From Zychaea mexicana (taxonomy: Eukaryota > Mucoromycota > Mucoromycetes > Mucorales > Lichtheimiaceae): a stretch of 64,000 nt of DNA. Each line of letters opens with the position of its first letter. The first letter of the stretch is position 1. Positions 1-6,654 of this stretch are shown here, piece after piece. The notes beneath the pieces were generated by a model. It ran no database searches. It saw only the letters and a list, made by a program, of their open reading frames with translations, and had not been told where the DNA came from. Made by a program: the position numbers and the translations under genes. Location of the stretch: contig NW_026516678.1 of assembly GCF_025766255.1 (NCBI RefSeq), positions 248,001-312,000 of the forward strand, written 5' to 3'.

Positions 1-2244
1 TCTGTCAGCAAAAAACATTGTCTTCTTTACCTTATCTTTTTACTTCAATATTAAGGGCAACAACTCACTTACAAACCGCCAAAAATTTGCTATTTGCACA
101 TACAAACAGCAGAATCCTAAAGTCGGTCAACGTGCTTTAGCACAATGGGCTAAGGATGAGTTCAAACTCGAGAAACCACCTGTCCAATCGACAATCTCGC
201 TTATTCTTAGAGAAAAAGAGAAGTATCTCGCTATGTCGGAAACCGAGCTTAATATGAAAAGAAAACGCGTACCAGCATTGCCAGAAGTCGAAAACGTTCT
301 TGCAGAATTCGTCATGGATATGGCATCTGTTGGGCAACCAGTCAACAGGGAAAGCATCATTCTCCAAGCAAAAATTCAAGCAAGACGCCTCAACATTGTT
401 GTTCCTGAAGGATTTCAGTATTCTGACGGCTGGGTCACCAAATTCATGAAACGTCACAGATTAAAATCACACGGTATCCATGGTGAGGCTGGCTCCGTTG
501 ACATCGACGATGAAAAGATCCAAAAGCAGCTCGAAGAAGTCAAGGCCAAATAGCCGAGTTTCCACCTGAATGCATCTATAACATTGATGAAACGGGACTT
601 TTTTACAAGCAAGTGCCACGTCGAACGATTTCGAACAAACCTATTGCCGGACGAAAAGTCGATAAAAGTCGTGTAACTGTTGTCCTTGTCACCAATGCAA
701 CTGGCTCGCATAAACTTGGCCCCTACTTCATTGGACGCTTTGCTGGAGGAAAAGATTTTGGATCAAAGCTGAGTAAGTTAATGTTAGTAAAACATGAAAA
801 AGAACGACAGCTGATTCAATACACCATAATAGTCAAGGACTGTTACAAGTATTACTTTGCGGGATACGGTCCAATTTTTGCTGGATGCGGTCCGGATACG
901 GTCCTTCAATTTTGCTGGATACGGTCCAATTTTGCTGGATACGGTCCAATTTTTGCTGGATGCGGTCCAATTTTGCGGGATACGGTCCAATTTTTGCTGG
1001 ATGCGGTCCAATTTTGCTGGATACGGTCCAATTTTGCTGGATACGGTCCAATTTTGCTGGATACGGTCCAATTTTTGCTGGATACGGTCCAATTTTTGCT
1101 GGATGCGGTCCAATTTTTGCTGGATGCGGTCCGGATACGGTCCTTCAATTTTGGATGCGGTCCAATTTTGGTGGATACGGTCCAATTTTGCTGGATACGG
1201 TCCAATTTTTGCCTGGATGCGGTCCAATTTTGCTGGATACGGTCCAATTTTTGCTGGATGCGGTCCAATTTTTGCTCTCTTATTGATGGATAATGCACCT
1301 TCGCATAAAAACTTGGAAATTCAGTTAAAAAATATCGAGTTGTGCATGCTTCCTCCAAATACCACATCCCACTACCAACCGCTTGATGCAGGAATCATTG
1401 CTTCGTTCAAAAAAAAGTATAGTACATTGTAAACAACAGGAGATTTAAGCAGACAAAGTGATTTATTTGGATGTTAAGAAAGCAGAACTTGTTGGGCCAA
1501 ATCTATTTTAGGAGCATCTTATTTCGCAGAGCAACAATTCGCCACAACAACAACGAGCTTCACGATCTTTACAACATTAAGTTCAAACAAGCCTTGGACT
1601 GGTCTATTATGGCCTGGGACCGTGTCTCGTCCGAAACAATTTCAAATTGTTTTCGACATACTGGCCTTATGTCAGTGGAAACCCTTACAGAAGTAATTGA
1701 ATCCGAAGAAGCTGTTGTTTTGCAGGAGGAGGAGGAACTGACCGTCGAACTTGACTCGTACCTAAGATCTGTCAGCAATGATCAAGATGATACGAACACA
1801 GTTTTCGTGATTCCAGATGACGAAGACGACGGGATCCATGAGATGTTGACGCTGGAAGAACGAACGGATCGTTTGGTGAATCAGAACGTTGAAGATGAAG
1901 GTACAGTAGGGACATCATACAAAGTAAGTGCATTGATGGATAAAATCCCCTCGTCTTTATAATAGGCGAGGAGGGAGAGACCGAAGAACAAAATGAAGAA
2001 GAAGATGATGCCGATGCGAATATTAGGGCAATTAAAGAAAAAAAGTGCCTCTACCAAAGTTTTATAGATAAACTTGACATCACACACAAATTGGATATGG
2101 ACATCTTGTATCTGGTAAAAAAAAGAGTTAGACTTTTGGAGTCAGAGGAGCGGCAATCAGTGAAGCTGACGCAATCCCACCTCATAGACTTTCTAAATTT
2201 AGTGAATAAATATATACTACGAATTTTTATTGGGAATACATGTT
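1..2244 (+). pseudogene. Tigger/pogo-like DDE transposase, broken
   Basis: The frame open from about 45 to 553 holds the two N-terminal DNA-binding helices, including a Tc5/CENP-B type helix-turn-helix around 320-475 (QPVNRESIIL, then YSDGWVTKFMKRH). A frameshift near 550 leads into the DDE domain. The first catalytic Asp is in YNIDETGLF (about 578-604), the second in LLMDNAPSH (about 1282-1308) and the third block is QPLDAGII (about 1378-1401). The roughly 70 residues expected between the first two blocks are replaced by a minisatellite. Coding resumes at 1471-1962 and, in another frame, at about 1964-2244 with an acidic stretch and a C-terminal tail. At least three frame breaks make it non-functional. 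The left end is cut by the window edge. Confidence 0.85.
858..1280 (+). repeat. Minisatellite inside transposase gene (~20-22 bp unit)
   Basis: The unit is GGATRCGGTCCAATTTTGCT with 4 or 5 T residues, repeated with about 21 copies of the CGGTCC core. A compound variant (GCGGTCCGGATACGGTCC then TTCAATTTT) occurs twice, near 891 and 1130, suggesting duplication of a larger block. The array sits exactly where the transposase should encode the sequence between its first and second catalytic aspartates. It is open in several frames on both strands, so it generates spurious ORFs with GYGPI and LDRIQQ repeats. Confidence 0.95.
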
Positions 2245-2403
2245 AACTCTGGACTCTGATGTATGATCCGACACTGATCGCTGGTTCGATTCCGCGTCAC
2301 TAAGCATTTCTATTGGTTTATACTTGTCGATATGTCACAGCCAAGTGATCGATGATCGAATTATCGATTTGTCGATATTTTACTGCTTACCAGCCTGGTC
2401 ATT

Positions 2404-2470
2404 TGAGAAAGTGATCGAATTATCGAAAATATCGAGTTATCGAGTATCGAATTATCGAGCGGGCACTGTA
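2404..2470. repeat. Right terminal inverted repeat and TA target site of Tigger-like element
   Basis: Short palindromic words of the ATCGAATTATCGA type are repeated up to GGGCACTG at 2461-2468, followed by TA at 2469-2470. Pogo/Tigger ends characteristically start CAGT and duplicate TA. The matching left end would lie upstream of this window. Confidence 0.6.
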
Positions 2471-4773
2471 CATCGCGTGAACGAGCTCGAGATAACCCCG
2501 ATGCTATGCTATGGTCCTTCTTCGATCAGTCTCGTGTTGAATCACTAGCGGACCGACATCGCATGGAATTCTGTAATCGCATTATCGTACGACCAGACAA
2601 GACCGTATCAATCGTTGGAATCATGAAGGAAGGCTGTGAGCCGTTGGTCTCTGCATATGAGGAACGTCAACGAAAGCGACGAAAGAAGGGAGGTCGGTCA
2701 GGAGCGTCAGCAACCATTGGGACGACCGATAAGACGCTTGAACAGTTACAAGCTGATGAAGAGCGGGCAACATCGAGCACAAAAGAGCTACAAAGAAGAC
2801 ATGGTGTTCTAAAGAAAAAATACCAGCAAACCGCCAAGGAACGCAAAATAGCCAGAAAACGTTTTCAGTTTTGCAACCAAACATGAAAGAATCGAAGCAA
2901 GTGCCGCACTATCGATACGTGTGCGTGAAAATCGGCAAGTTAGGCTCGCTATGCTGCTTAATCATCGTGATTTGAAGAATGAAAAGTCGTAGATACAAGA
3001 CCCAAAAGGTAATATTATCCTCTCTGGACTTCTTTAACACATGTACTGGTTGTTGATTGATACTTTCCCATTACTGTAGTTTATCGAGCAGGCGAAAAAC
3101 AACAAGAAAGACAATGCCGCTGCAACTACTGTCCCAGCAATAACACCGACTGTGCAAAAGCCTCAGTGCGAAGATACAGCTGCTAATATTGATCTGTCAA
3201 ATCATTGCCCATTGGGTCAAGTCTACGGTGGTACAGACTACGGTCATGTTACAATGTCCCAGACAACAGCCTTAACCAAACAAGATGTTCTTTTCCACGT
3301 CTCTCTCTACAACGCGCAGCAAATTCATCGGCAGCAGCCAAGATTAGCCGAAGCAGGTTCGCTTGGAGCAAATGTATCAATCAACCAAGCGTCCGACACG
3401 TCTTCACCCTCTGCCATCCCGCGACACGATGCCACACAAGCAAATATGAAGAGGGAAGGCATGGATTTAGAACCACCACCTCCAGCGAAGCGCCAGACGA
3501 CCTTTGATTTAAAAAATGCTGTCGGAAGTTCTGAATTGTACCTACAAGAACAGAGTGACGCCAAGCGGGAAGGATCTACATTGGAAGAGCAACAACCACC
3601 GGCTAAGCGGCAGTGTTTGCATAGTGATGCTACAACATCTCATCAAAGCCCGCCACCGCATATATCAAAAAAGGAAGCAATACATTGCAGCTGGGTCTTG
3701 AACCATGTTGAAAACGGATCCATCACAATGAGCCACAAAGGACGTATACGGATGTAAGGACAGAATATTCAGCAGATGCGGATTCTGTTGGACCGTGAGA
3801 TGAAAGCTTCACCGCAGCAAGAGCATCAGGACCAGCAACAGGACCAGCAGCTACAACAACAGCAGCAATATATTGATCTTGAAACGCTTACAGTCAAGGA
3901 CCTAAAACTACCCAAGCCATTCACAATCACACACGAACAGATCCATGAAGCGACGAAAACAAAAAAGTTCATGGTGAGGCAGGAGAACCGGCTGAAGAAG
4001 GTATGTTCATGTAAAATTGTTGTACGCATACGTGACAGTTTACATACTTAGCTTATCTTGCTTTAATGTTTATGAACAACTTTGATACACAGCCTGAGAA
4101 TGAAGAAGTGCGGAATGCTCTCCACGACTTACAAGAAAACTGCTTCGTTGGCATCTGCGATCCAGTGGAAACCTTCAAAAGGCAAAAAGTCAGGCTACAG
4201 CATGTCGACGTTCTACGCAAGTTTTATTATTCCAACGCTGCCCTCAATGAACACCGTCACCGCGAAATTGCTACAAGTCGTCTTTATACGCAACTTGCGA
4301 CAAAGGAACGCCAAAAACCTGCGTCCTGTCATGTGTGTTGGCCTTGCCAGCACAGGCGTAGGCTCCCATCTACGTGGGCGACCTCGGCGCGGCGGCCGCA
4401 AGATGCGCAATGAACATAGAATTTGTTGTCCGGTGGTATTGCAGGATGAATATTGAACTAGTCAAACCTGTCCTTCTGCTAATGTCCACTGGTGATGGCA
4501 ACGGCAACCAAGGCTACAAAAAACGGTAAAATCAAGGCAGTGAAGGTCCATGGCGCTCTCCAATGTGTCAACCCGGATTGCCCTGCGGTGCGTGTCGGGT
4601 ACACTACCTTTAGTCGTGATTCTCTCTCGAGTACGGCCATGATCTTCGCTGCTGTTACCCAGTTATTCTCCCCTACCAAGTCACCTCTTCCCCCTTTCGA
4701 TCCTACCAACCCAACACAAGCAAGTATTACATTTTCACCTGCCTTTTTGCAGCATCCATCATATCATCTATAG
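2469..4773 (+). pseudogene. Fanzor-like (eukaryotic TnpB/OMEGA) RNA-guided nuclease, decayed
   Basis: Split-RuvC motifs appear in the order expected for Fanzor/TnpB. The N-terminal region has RHRMEFCNRIIVRPDKTVSI (about 2557-2616). RuvC-I is GGTDYGHVTMS near 3227-3259. The pre-RuvC-II block TGVGSHLRGRPRRGGRK lies near 4354-4404. RuvC-II is LQDEY (4442-4453), followed by TSQTCPSA. A zinc-ribbon half CVNPDCP (about 4564-4584) and RuvC-III FSRDSLSS (about 4609-4632) close the gene. Lesions: a frameshift near 2880, an in-frame TAG at 2990, an in-frame TAA at 3755, a frameshift at about 4310-4340, a TGA at 4454 directly after the RuvC-II DEY, and a frameshift near 4487. One zinc-ribbon Cys is also missing (CPSA). 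Likely introns are 3009-3079 and 4001-4092. The 5' part is cut off by the Tigger-like element ending at 2468. Fanzors are established RNA-guided DNA nucleases in fungi; this copy is a relic. Assignment rests on motif recognition, not on a search. Confidence 0.82.
3440..3900 (+). other. Low-complexity insertion in the Fanzor-like gene
   Basis: Between RuvC-I and the downstream LKLPKPFTITHEQIH block there is a long unstructured stretch. It contains an internally duplicated segment (KREG...PPAKRQ at about 3448-3500 and again at about 3562-3614) and then a Gln-rich run encoded by CAG/CAA at about 3810-3870. The PPAKRQ tracts resemble basic nuclear localisation patches. This looks like lineage-specific expansion by replication slippage. 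Confidence 0.6.
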
Positions 4774-4957
4774 AAATGGTGCGCTTGTTGCTTCCATGGG
4801 TTTTCCTGGACCTGTTTACTGCGCGCTCCCCTTCTTTTCCCAAACATCGTTTGAGTGCCAATAAATTTTCGCTTTGACAAGCATATCCGAGAATTATTCA
4901 AGTGGCTCAAGTTCCTTGAAAAGCAACACTTTTTTTTGACATTGTACTGCAGTCACC

Positions 4958-5794
4958 ATGCGTCCTCTCACAAACGAAGAAACAACTACGCTTTTCGAGA
5001 AATTAGCAAAATAGTAAACGATCTCAAACGTTTTCGAAGTGATTGAAAAATATGCAAGTCTAATAGCTTGTCACTTATGTAGCATCGGATCGAACATTAA
5101 GCACTTGATTGATCGGCCAGATGAAACTTACTGCTTCCGTTTGCACAAAGATCGAGTATACTACCTCAGGTACTCTATAAAGGAAGGGTAGAACAAATAA
5201 AAGTACAACACATGGCAACATATACTCAACAAGAATCTATATATAGTGAGAGCATGGTACGCATAGCAACTTCTGTTGGTCGAGATCAGTTGGGATCTGC
5301 TGGTGTCTGCTTCGGCAAGTTCACCAAAACCGGAAAGTTTACGCTCCATGTCACCGCTTTGGATCACTTGGCACAATATGCAAAGGTAAACCGCTATATA
5401 TTGAAATGACATAGAAGCGGAAAACGGCTGATACATTCATATCGTATTAGCACAAGATCTGGATCAAGCCAAATGGTGAAATGACATATCTCTATGGCAA
5501 TAATGTTGTCAAGGCACATTTGGGTCGCATTACGGATGATACACCTGAACACACTGGTGTTGTTGTTTATTCCATGACAGACATGCCTTTGGTAAGTTTG
5601 TTTTTGCAACTATAGGAAGGGGGAGCAATTATGCATATAGCGGAGGATGGGTAAACTGACAAGAGTTCAATTAGGGTTTCGGTGTCACTGCTCGATCAAC
5701 AGCAGATATGAAGAAGCTTCAGCCAACGGATATCATTGTGTTCCATCAGGCAGATGTTGGAGAATACCTTCGCTCTGAAGATACTTTATTATAA
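4958..5794 (+). CDS. NIP7: 60S ribosome biogenesis protein NIP7
   Basis: The five exons are 4958-5013, 5083-5169, 5247-5385, 5451-5591 and 5675-5794. All have GT-AG introns and joined phases, giving 180 aa, the usual NIP7 length. The N-terminus [19 protein letters not shown] and the internal [19 protein letters not shown] are near-signature sequences for the family. NIP7 is a nucleolar factor for 27S pre-rRNA processing and 60S assembly. Its C-terminal PUA domain (exons 4-5, ending [13 protein letters not shown]) binds RNA. The start is fixed by the conserved MRPLT. The gene converges on the RRG7-like gene, whose stop lies 116 bp away on the other strand. No lesions are seen. Confidence 0.97.
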
Positions 5795-5910
5795 TTAATG
5801 TTTTCCCTTAAAGCTTTTATCATTGTAATATACTATATACATTCTTTTGCTTTCTTCTTTCATTTACAATATCACCAAAACGCATTACACAGAAAAAAAG
5901 TCTTGTTTTT

Positions 5911-6531
5911 TTATGAACAATTTCTATCTCGATCAACAATATCTCCATCATGCATCAATACGGGTGTTGAGTTGCCATTGGAATCGAATTGGGTTGCTAC
6001 TGTCAAACCTTGTAAAACTGTTTCTGCTGCAGGATTGAATAGAAGCGAGTCAAGTCGCACATCACATATTCTTGCCAAGGCCAACGGCATATGTGATTCC
6101 ATGAAATGCGAAATGACATCGGCTGTATATTTTTTGTTACTGCTTGTAGCCAACATTGCTATACTGGATTGAGGATCCAATGCGCCTGCTGAACCGACCA
6201 GTGCCCGCACATGATCAGGTGAACATCCAGCCTTGATACTCTTGCATTGAACGATGATGCTCGGTGCAATATCTATCCCAAAAGGTTGCTGTTGTTTATA
6301 AAGTGACAAGTCGCGTAATGGCCACGTGCCTCGTAAATCCACGCCACCGTCGCTTTTTCCACCTACGCGTCGTAGTCGCATCCCGAGTTCTTGCTCAAAG
6401 ACTTGATGCGTTTGCCATTCGAAAAGCGTTCCTCGATAGACAGTGGACGACGAATCAGAGGGTGGATGTCGTAGAAACGATTTGAGATCGTGGATCAAGG
6501 TTGATTTGGCACGATTAAGAGGGTTACGCAT
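5911..6531 (-). CDS. RRG7: RRG7-like mitochondrial protein, PD-(D/E)XK fold
   Basis: This is a single-exon gene of 206 aa. The segment YRGTLFEWQTHQVFEQELG, then KSDGGVDLRG and IIVQCK (about residues 33-95) gives the Glu, Asp and Gln-x-Lys spacing of the restriction-endonuclease-like fold. The family is DUF2034/RRG7 (required for respiratory growth 7), a mitochondrial protein needed for respiration in yeast, with an unknown biochemical role. The ATG at 6531 begins MRNPLNRAKSTL, a plausible short amphipathic presequence. It is convergent with NIP7. The subgroup assignment is by motif memory; another DUF2034 member is possible. Confidence 0.8.
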   Translation of the reverse strand: MRNPLNRAKSTLIHDLKSFLRHPPSDSSSTVYRGTLFEWQTHQVFEQELGMRLRRVGGKSDGGVDLRGTWPLRDLSLYKQQQPFGIDIAPSIIVQCKSIKAGCSPDHVRALVGSAGALDPQSSIAMLATSSNKKYTADVISHFMESHMPLALARICDVRLDSLLFNPAAETVLQGLTVATQFDSNGNSTPVLMHDGDIVDRDRNCS

Positions 6532-6654
6532 TGAAAGAAGGAGAGACAGATTTCTATATCCTTATTTAAATGAGCCAATCTCTTTTCTGAATCGTAGTTA
6601 CAACAAGATGAGCTTCGTTTCGATGAAGTACAGTATTTCCAATATGTGATGTCG

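Follow-up and report, generated by a model that had tools for sequence, protein, structure and literature searches.

A probable dead Fanzor1 element in Zychaea mexicana and its dispersed relatives

The locus analyzed here raises the question of whether a series of nuclease motifs spread over a broken reading frame constitutes the remains of a gene and, if so, to which family that gene belonged. The window, a stretch of 64,000 nucleotides (C57:248001-312000) from the 50.3 Mb, 305-contig genome of Zychaea mexicana (Mucorales, Lichtheimiaceae), had been described in a first-pass annotation as carrying, at 2469..4773, a decayed Fanzor-like nuclease gene, and the suggestion of a Mucorales fungus as the host group was correct. 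Fanzors are eukaryotic RNA-guided DNA nucleases that mobile elements carry. The public gene model of the locus, P0003, describes a hypothetical protein of 274 amino acids. The evidence presented below indicates, with a probability of about 0.88, that the interval holds what is left of a mobile element of Z. mexicana that carried a Fanzor1 gene, the copy being dead.

The search of the genome with window DNA 2407-4773 identified near-complete siblings on C13, C68, C190 and C201, with 92.6-96.3% nucleotide identity to the window over 2469-4867, and a partial one on C243 (93.4% over the 3' 1.4 kb). Additional pieces, shorter or further diverged, are present on C262, C50, C233, C234, C24 and C113, and a 308 bp query from the 3' end returned 12 matches genome-wide. 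The anticipated existence of relatives elsewhere in the genome was thus borne out by better-preserved loci. As judged from these comparisons, a chance origin of the window motifs is excluded, because nucleotide identity of 92.6-96.3% extends over 1.4-2.4 kb at five other loci. The copy at C201:240774-253709 is split by an insertion of ~7.5 kb, with match parts that overlap by 6 bp; its reading as a 5'-truncated copy was rejected, its 5' part lying ~7.5 kb away, past the insertion.

The C13 copy, which is 96% identical to the window over 2.4 kb, provides a reference gene. Once five phase-0 GT-AG introns (71-98 nt each) are removed, it reads without interruption for 1399 residues, and the encoded protein presents the RuvC-I aspartate at residue 904, the alternative RuvC-II glutamate at 1292 and the RuvC-III aspartate at 1349. 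Twice within its N-terminal part, C13 is one base longer or shorter than its siblings; at the second of these sites C201 has the same length as C13, unlike C68 and C190. For this reason the C13 copy is not called proven intact. In-frame stops were detected in C68 (two), C190 (one), C201 (three) and C243 (one). The D904 codon (GTDYG) is kept in all five close copies that cover it, and the E1292 and D1349 codons are kept in six of six.

Alignment to the open C13 copy, which was used to place the window codons and lesions listed in Table 1, located the RuvC-I, GVGS, RuvC-II and RuvC-III motifs in the places and order originally claimed. The window copy spans about residues 672-1399 of the C13 protein and represents the 3' ~40% of a repeat whose length is 6.1 kb or more. 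All three catalytic codons are kept despite four indels and three in-frame stops, in agreement with the earlier observation that the catalytic acidic residues survive and the frame does not. The indels and stops behind the reported frame breaks are real, but the apparent breaks at 3009-3079 and 4001-4092 are GT-AG introns, as the comparison with C13 revealed. The reported zinc-ribbon half was recovered as CVNPDC, the second half of the ribbon, in the 4483-4773 frame; the first CxxC has been lost through a frame break. Fanzor similarity begins at 2469 because a 2636-bp transposon ends at 2468, so that the left limit of the first-pass annotation holds, but the right end of the element is at 4867 and not at 4773. 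Decay was likewise confirmed, but the loss of the 5' half had been missed: no match to the Fanzor repeat was found in the 2.8 kb left of the transposon, and the first half of the gene is hence absent from the locus.

Table 1. Features of the Fanzor1 locus and the adjoining transposon (window coordinates)
Feature	Position	Strand	Remarks
Pogo-like transposon, right part	1..2468	+	Whole element 2636 bp; inverted ends CAGTGCCCGCTCGATAATTCGA; TA on both sides
Probable Fanzor1 element copy, decayed	2469..4867	+	Bounded by the inserted transposon and the fixed 3' end, ..GAGTGCCAATAAATT
Exon 4 remnant, directly before RuvC	2469..3008	+	Indels near 2868 and 2984
Intron 4	3009..3079	+	GT-AG, phase 0, 71 nt; same splice in C13; P0003 joins across it
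Exon 5	3080..4000	+	RuvC-I GGTDYG, D codon 3236; stop at 3755
Exon 5 RuvC insertion	within 3080..4000	+	Long, low-complexity, with two PAKRQ repeats
Intron 5	4001..4092	+	GT-AG, phase 0, 92 nt; same splice in C13
Exon 6	4093..4773	+	GVGS block, glycine 4376; RuvC-II alternative glutamate of DEY, 4448
Exon 6, continued	4093..4773	+	Zinc ribbon; RuvC-III RD, D codon 4618
Exon 6 lesions	near 4314; near 4472; 4454, 4480		44-nt deletion; 1-nt deletion; stops
Conserved non-coding 3' end	4774..4867	+	Candidate omega-RNA scaffold; alignment of 12 copies

The distribution of substitutions among codon positions outlined two phases in the history of the family. C13 was compared with a pool of diverged copies, namely C234, C233, C50, C24 and C113, which did not include C262 or an overlapping second locus on C234. 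Differences were counted at 366/1316 third positions and at 538/2649 first and second positions (chi-square P 1.4e-7). The greater divergence of third positions indicates that selection acted on the protein during the divergence of the subfamilies. Changes private to individual copies among the six close ones are flat over the three codon positions (61:58:50, P 0.55), those of the window copy being 9:7:5, and this indicates that recent copies decay freely.

The pogo-like transposon that adjoins the remnant has a broken gene of its own, the two pieces of which yield weak, collinear DDE_1 matches below the Pfam cut-off. A minisatellite with units of 20-41 bp occupies window positions 862-1276, inside this broken DDE_1 transposase gene; it is present in transposon copies L027 and L030, and in copies L026, L032, L038 and L039 the match covers its two flanks without extending across it. 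Downstream of the remnant, window 4958-5800 contains a gene reading, by its domain, as NIP7 (ribosome biogenesis), followed on the reverse strand (5914-6561) by an RRG7-like gene, for which the Mrr restriction-endonuclease model gives a match as well. The apparent NIP7 start at 4958, judged by eye, lies ~90 bp past the Fanzor 3' end, which places the Fanzor remnant in the NIP7 promoter or 5' leader. A remnant ending so close to the putative start could serve as a promoter, and public annotation does place a protein at the locus, so that a living, shortened gene corresponding to the 274-aa P0003 model, or a piece co-opted by the host, had to be weighed. However, the P0003 model stops before the RuvC-II glutamate and the RuvC-III aspartate and omits the exon stretch holding the stop at 3755, and the private changes of the window copy are flat. 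Retained function at this locus is therefore regarded as highly improbable, and the preferred interpretation is that of a dead element copy.

The family assignment stems from comparisons with proteins of solved structure. At E<=10, the C-terminal exon of C13 presented a single PDB match, the Spizellomyces punctatus Fanzor SpuFz1 (E 5.1e-4), spanning the DEY motif, the zinc ribbon and the RD motif and aligning DEYRTSQTC of C13 with DEYKTSSVC of SpuFz1. A ten-sequence profile, built from the C13 exon, one public Zychaea protein, the Benniella and Rhizopus microsporus proteins, one further protein and five Zychaea loci, matched SpuFz1 (1.2e-8) and the Parasitella PpFz1 (2.3e-5) and no other PDB sequence at E<=1; both of the two solved relatives closest to the family are Fanzor1 proteins. 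In the ten-row alignment (A3) the RuvC-II glutamate (10/10) and the first zinc-ribbon CxxC are invariant, and the remaining two ribbon cysteines and the RuvC-III aspartate are at least 90% conserved. The repositioned RuvC-II glutamate, CCCC zinc ribbon and RuvC-III aspartate of Fanzor1 are all present in the family. The RuvC-I region had no PDB match of its own, and the putative RuvC-I assignment rests on its motif, its position and its recurrence in the paralogues on C260 and C236.

Against 5.8 billion proteins, the exon query returned six matches at E<=0.01 (three from Zychaea, one from Benniella sp., one from Rhizopus microsporus and one further protein), and nothing was returned at this threshold by the 1399-residue protein or by a 548-residue query scored on residues 300-548. 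No Pfam domain scored above cut-off in C13 residues 1-415 or exon 4, and the TnpB models of Pfam and NCBIfam did not match the family; since these collections do not recognise it, a missing domain name is no argument here. The mean pLDDT of two AlphaFold predictions was 38.1 and 44.6, too low for a meaningful fold comparison. The profile check proposed in the first-pass annotation thus succeeded with a model of the family itself, which finds SpuFz1 and PpFz1, but general TnpB models were silent. The Fanzor name is correct: both the exon and the profile match PDB entries of Fanzor1 only, and the earlier interpretation of the locus as a Fanzor gene is supported.

The same order of RuvC motifs and the zinc ribbon are found in other RuvC families, and a Fanzor2-like family is present elsewhere in the Zychaea genome. 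This second family (L001-L004, at C57:109681, C246:152963, C79:331865 and C295:351135) presents a Cas12f1-like_TNB domain above the Pfam cut-off and a DPG motif, and it is considered Fanzor2-like because its zinc ribbon is nearest to that of mimivirus L79 (PDB 9b0l, E 6e-9). The possibility that the window gene is itself a Fanzor2, TnpB or Cas12 relative is nonetheless very slight: only Fanzor1 appeared among its PDB matches, the TnpB models of Pfam and NCBIfam miss its family yet match pieces of the second one, and the serine recombinase model PF00239 had no match in the genome at E<=1e-3. Of the Fanzor2/IS607 TnpB traits, both similarity to TnpB models and a serine recombinase in the genome are hence absent, and we retain the assignment to Fanzor1.

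A single search of the genome with the C-terminal exon produced 40 matches at E<=1, of which 37 had E<=1e-3 and defined 30 Fanzor1 loci, including that of the window. Eighteen of these 30 lie outside the 12 copies introduced earlier, and seven of the 18 were inspected (L081-L087, on C260, C236, C54, C252, C224, C264 and C157). RuvC-I is visible in six of the seven, as GTDYG on C260, SDYG on C236 and DPG on C54, C252, C224 and C264; on the seventh, C157, every frame fell short of the filter applied. On C54, C224 and C264 one open frame of 289-297 residues runs from RuvC-I to RuvC-III; on C252 a frame change removes the last part. The N-terminal region of C13 recurs upstream of the RuvC part on C260, in a 794-aa open frame (E 6e-6). 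Weak N-terminal matches upstream of the RuvC parts on C224 (E 0.013), C252 (0.025) and C278 (0.58) are only suggestive, and equally weak ones, on C273 (0.017) and at C112:557564 (0.027), lie near no Fanzor locus of the exon search. The available part of the survey by Bao and Jurka gives at most 13 Fanzor1 families per species, and 10 in Mucor circinelloides, counting families and not loci. The Zychaea Fanzor1 family appears exceptional in size and its proteins in length, but the dead window copy is ordinary.

The conserved non-coding segment predicted to adjoin the 3' ends of relatives corresponds to the last ~94 bases of the element, which show 79% mean column identity over 12 aligned copies; beyond the element end, in the flank, these copies diverge entirely. 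Among the five diverged copies, 77/437 sites of this segment differ, versus 103/412 in introns (P 0.009), the intron figure deriving from the three copies with introns aligned (C113, C233 and C234). Restricted to those three copies, the segment differs at 47/260 sites versus 103/412 (P 0.037). The effect is carried by C113 (13% in the segment vs 27% in the intron); it is not significant in C233 (21% vs 25%) and is reversed in C234 (20% vs 18%, intron 12/67). The segment is more conserved than third codon positions (P 1.5e-5) and not clearly more so than second positions (254/1321). Its conservation is what a guide-RNA scaffold would display, making it a candidate for this role, with a small margin over introns.

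Structural analyses gave this segment no decisive support. Folding z-scores against shuffles ranged from -2.28 to +1.13 in seven copies, RNAalifold detected zero compensatory pairs in the 12 copies, and a hand-written stem pairing GCGCGCTC with the 3' end GAGTGCC had covariation no better than that of shuffles. The model derived from that stem recovered, among 14 sources, the window 3' end used to build it and one match at chance level (E 0.81), and the element 3' end had no Rfam match. Conserved ends are a requirement of any mobile element, and the close copies terminate in AATAAATT. Together with the uneven conservation excess over introns and the lack of covariation support for an RNA stem, this makes a transposase-binding terminus, or a transcript end (AATAAA), a plausible, if somewhat improbable, alternative to a guide RNA. 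On the other side, the available parts of the relevant sources describe Fanzor1 guide RNAs as 75-150 nt long (PMC11423790) and located at the element end, with a scaffold that includes that end (PMC10711439), and the segment fits these in both length and position. The segment is hence kept as a candidate guide-RNA scaffold.

Turning to mobility, the copies are dispersed with a fixed 3' end, the right end being identical in close copies and nearly so in diverged ones. A left end, TGTATATACATCC, is common to C68 and C190. The left end of C13 is an LTR of ~620 bp, and C201 begins 128 bp before that LTR; the piece preceding the LTR encodes a chromodomain. A search with the first 501 bp of the LTR produced at least 46 match rows in the genome, a lower bound given that 40 of 110 candidates were scored, including at least four pairs ~5.6 kb apart. 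These rows were the basis for dropping the idea that the repeat is an LTR retrotransposon, which was rejected as the Fanzor copies show the LTR on the 5' side only. No terminal inverted repeats were found in three copies and no target duplications in six, in which the longest shared words had 4-6 nt, a length that many shuffles reach as well. The scanned frames showed no transposase.

A broader interpretation of these features can be advanced only tentatively, and we deem it rather unlikely as a whole. It posits that Zychaea harbors a branch of giant Fanzor1 nucleases, ~1,000-1,450 residues in length, that combine an extended N-terminal lobe with a large low-complexity insertion in RuvC. One subfamily would have spread with the captured LTR of a chromodomain retrotransposon as its 5' region, through a one-ended process that keeps the 3' end fixed and leaves target sites unduplicated.

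Under the preferred interpretation, that of a dead Fanzor1 element copy, the gene when alive encoded a protein of ~1,400 residues, the RuvC domain of which (D904, E1292 and D1349 in C13) would cut DNA. The last ~94 non-coding bases and the adjoining flank would be transcribed as a guide (omega) RNA, the guide of the window copy corresponding to the flank from 4868, and each insertion would thereby aim the nuclease at its own empty site, aiding persistence of the element. The window copy can no longer act in this way: it has lost its 5' half, the pogo-like transposon occupies the break, and indels and stops have accumulated in the absence of selection.

Fanzor1 elements in Mucorales with variable 5' and fixed 3' ends are already in print. 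In the available part of their description, the MCi-2 elements of Mucor circinelloides have variable 5' regions and a constant 3' region of 6 kb (PMC3627910). The Zychaea elements, also from the Mucorales, resemble them in a constant 3' part of several kb that contains the Fanzor gene, in differing 5' regions, in the lack of recognisable terminal inverted repeats and in an unassigned class. As far as that description extends, they differ in that MCi-2 has target duplications of 11-12 bp, ATAATTNNNN(N), and a partial Crypton transposase, whereas six Zychaea copies showed no duplication and the scanned frames no Crypton domain, and in that the Zychaea 5' part consists of the ~620 bp LTR and the chromodomain piece, unlike MCi-2.

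At the protein level, SpuFz1 (PDB 8gkh) is the best solved match of the Zychaea family and shares with it the DEY-TS glutamate motif, the zinc ribbon and the RD motif, in this order. According to the portions available of the respective sources, the D-to-E spacing is 388 residues in C13 versus 158 in SpuFz1 (D383, E541; PMC10432273), and the C13 protein has at least 1399 residues versus 600-700 for most Fanzor1 (PMC11423790). PpFz1 (Parasitella parasitica, PDB 9cf0), also from the Mucorales, likewise has a RuvC insertion, described in the same part of PMC11423790 as the FRI domain of ~100 residues; that of Zychaea is larger and low-complexity. Exon 5, which holds it, had no PDB match at E<=10, and cyclophilin binding is therefore not implied for the Zychaea insertion. 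A search of part of the literature found no paper on Zychaea mexicana and none that links Fanzor with Mucoromycota by name.

Taken alone, the window copy only adds a further dead member to a kind already known. The features unusual in Zychaea are the protein length, the large RuvC insertion and the number of loci, and these are points that a Fanzor specialist might pursue. With ~30 Fanzor1 loci in one genome, in varied states of decay and with a common 3' end and different flanks (the would-be guides), the Zychaea loci, which include several long open RuvC frames, constitute a natural series for the co-evolution of guide, target and element end.
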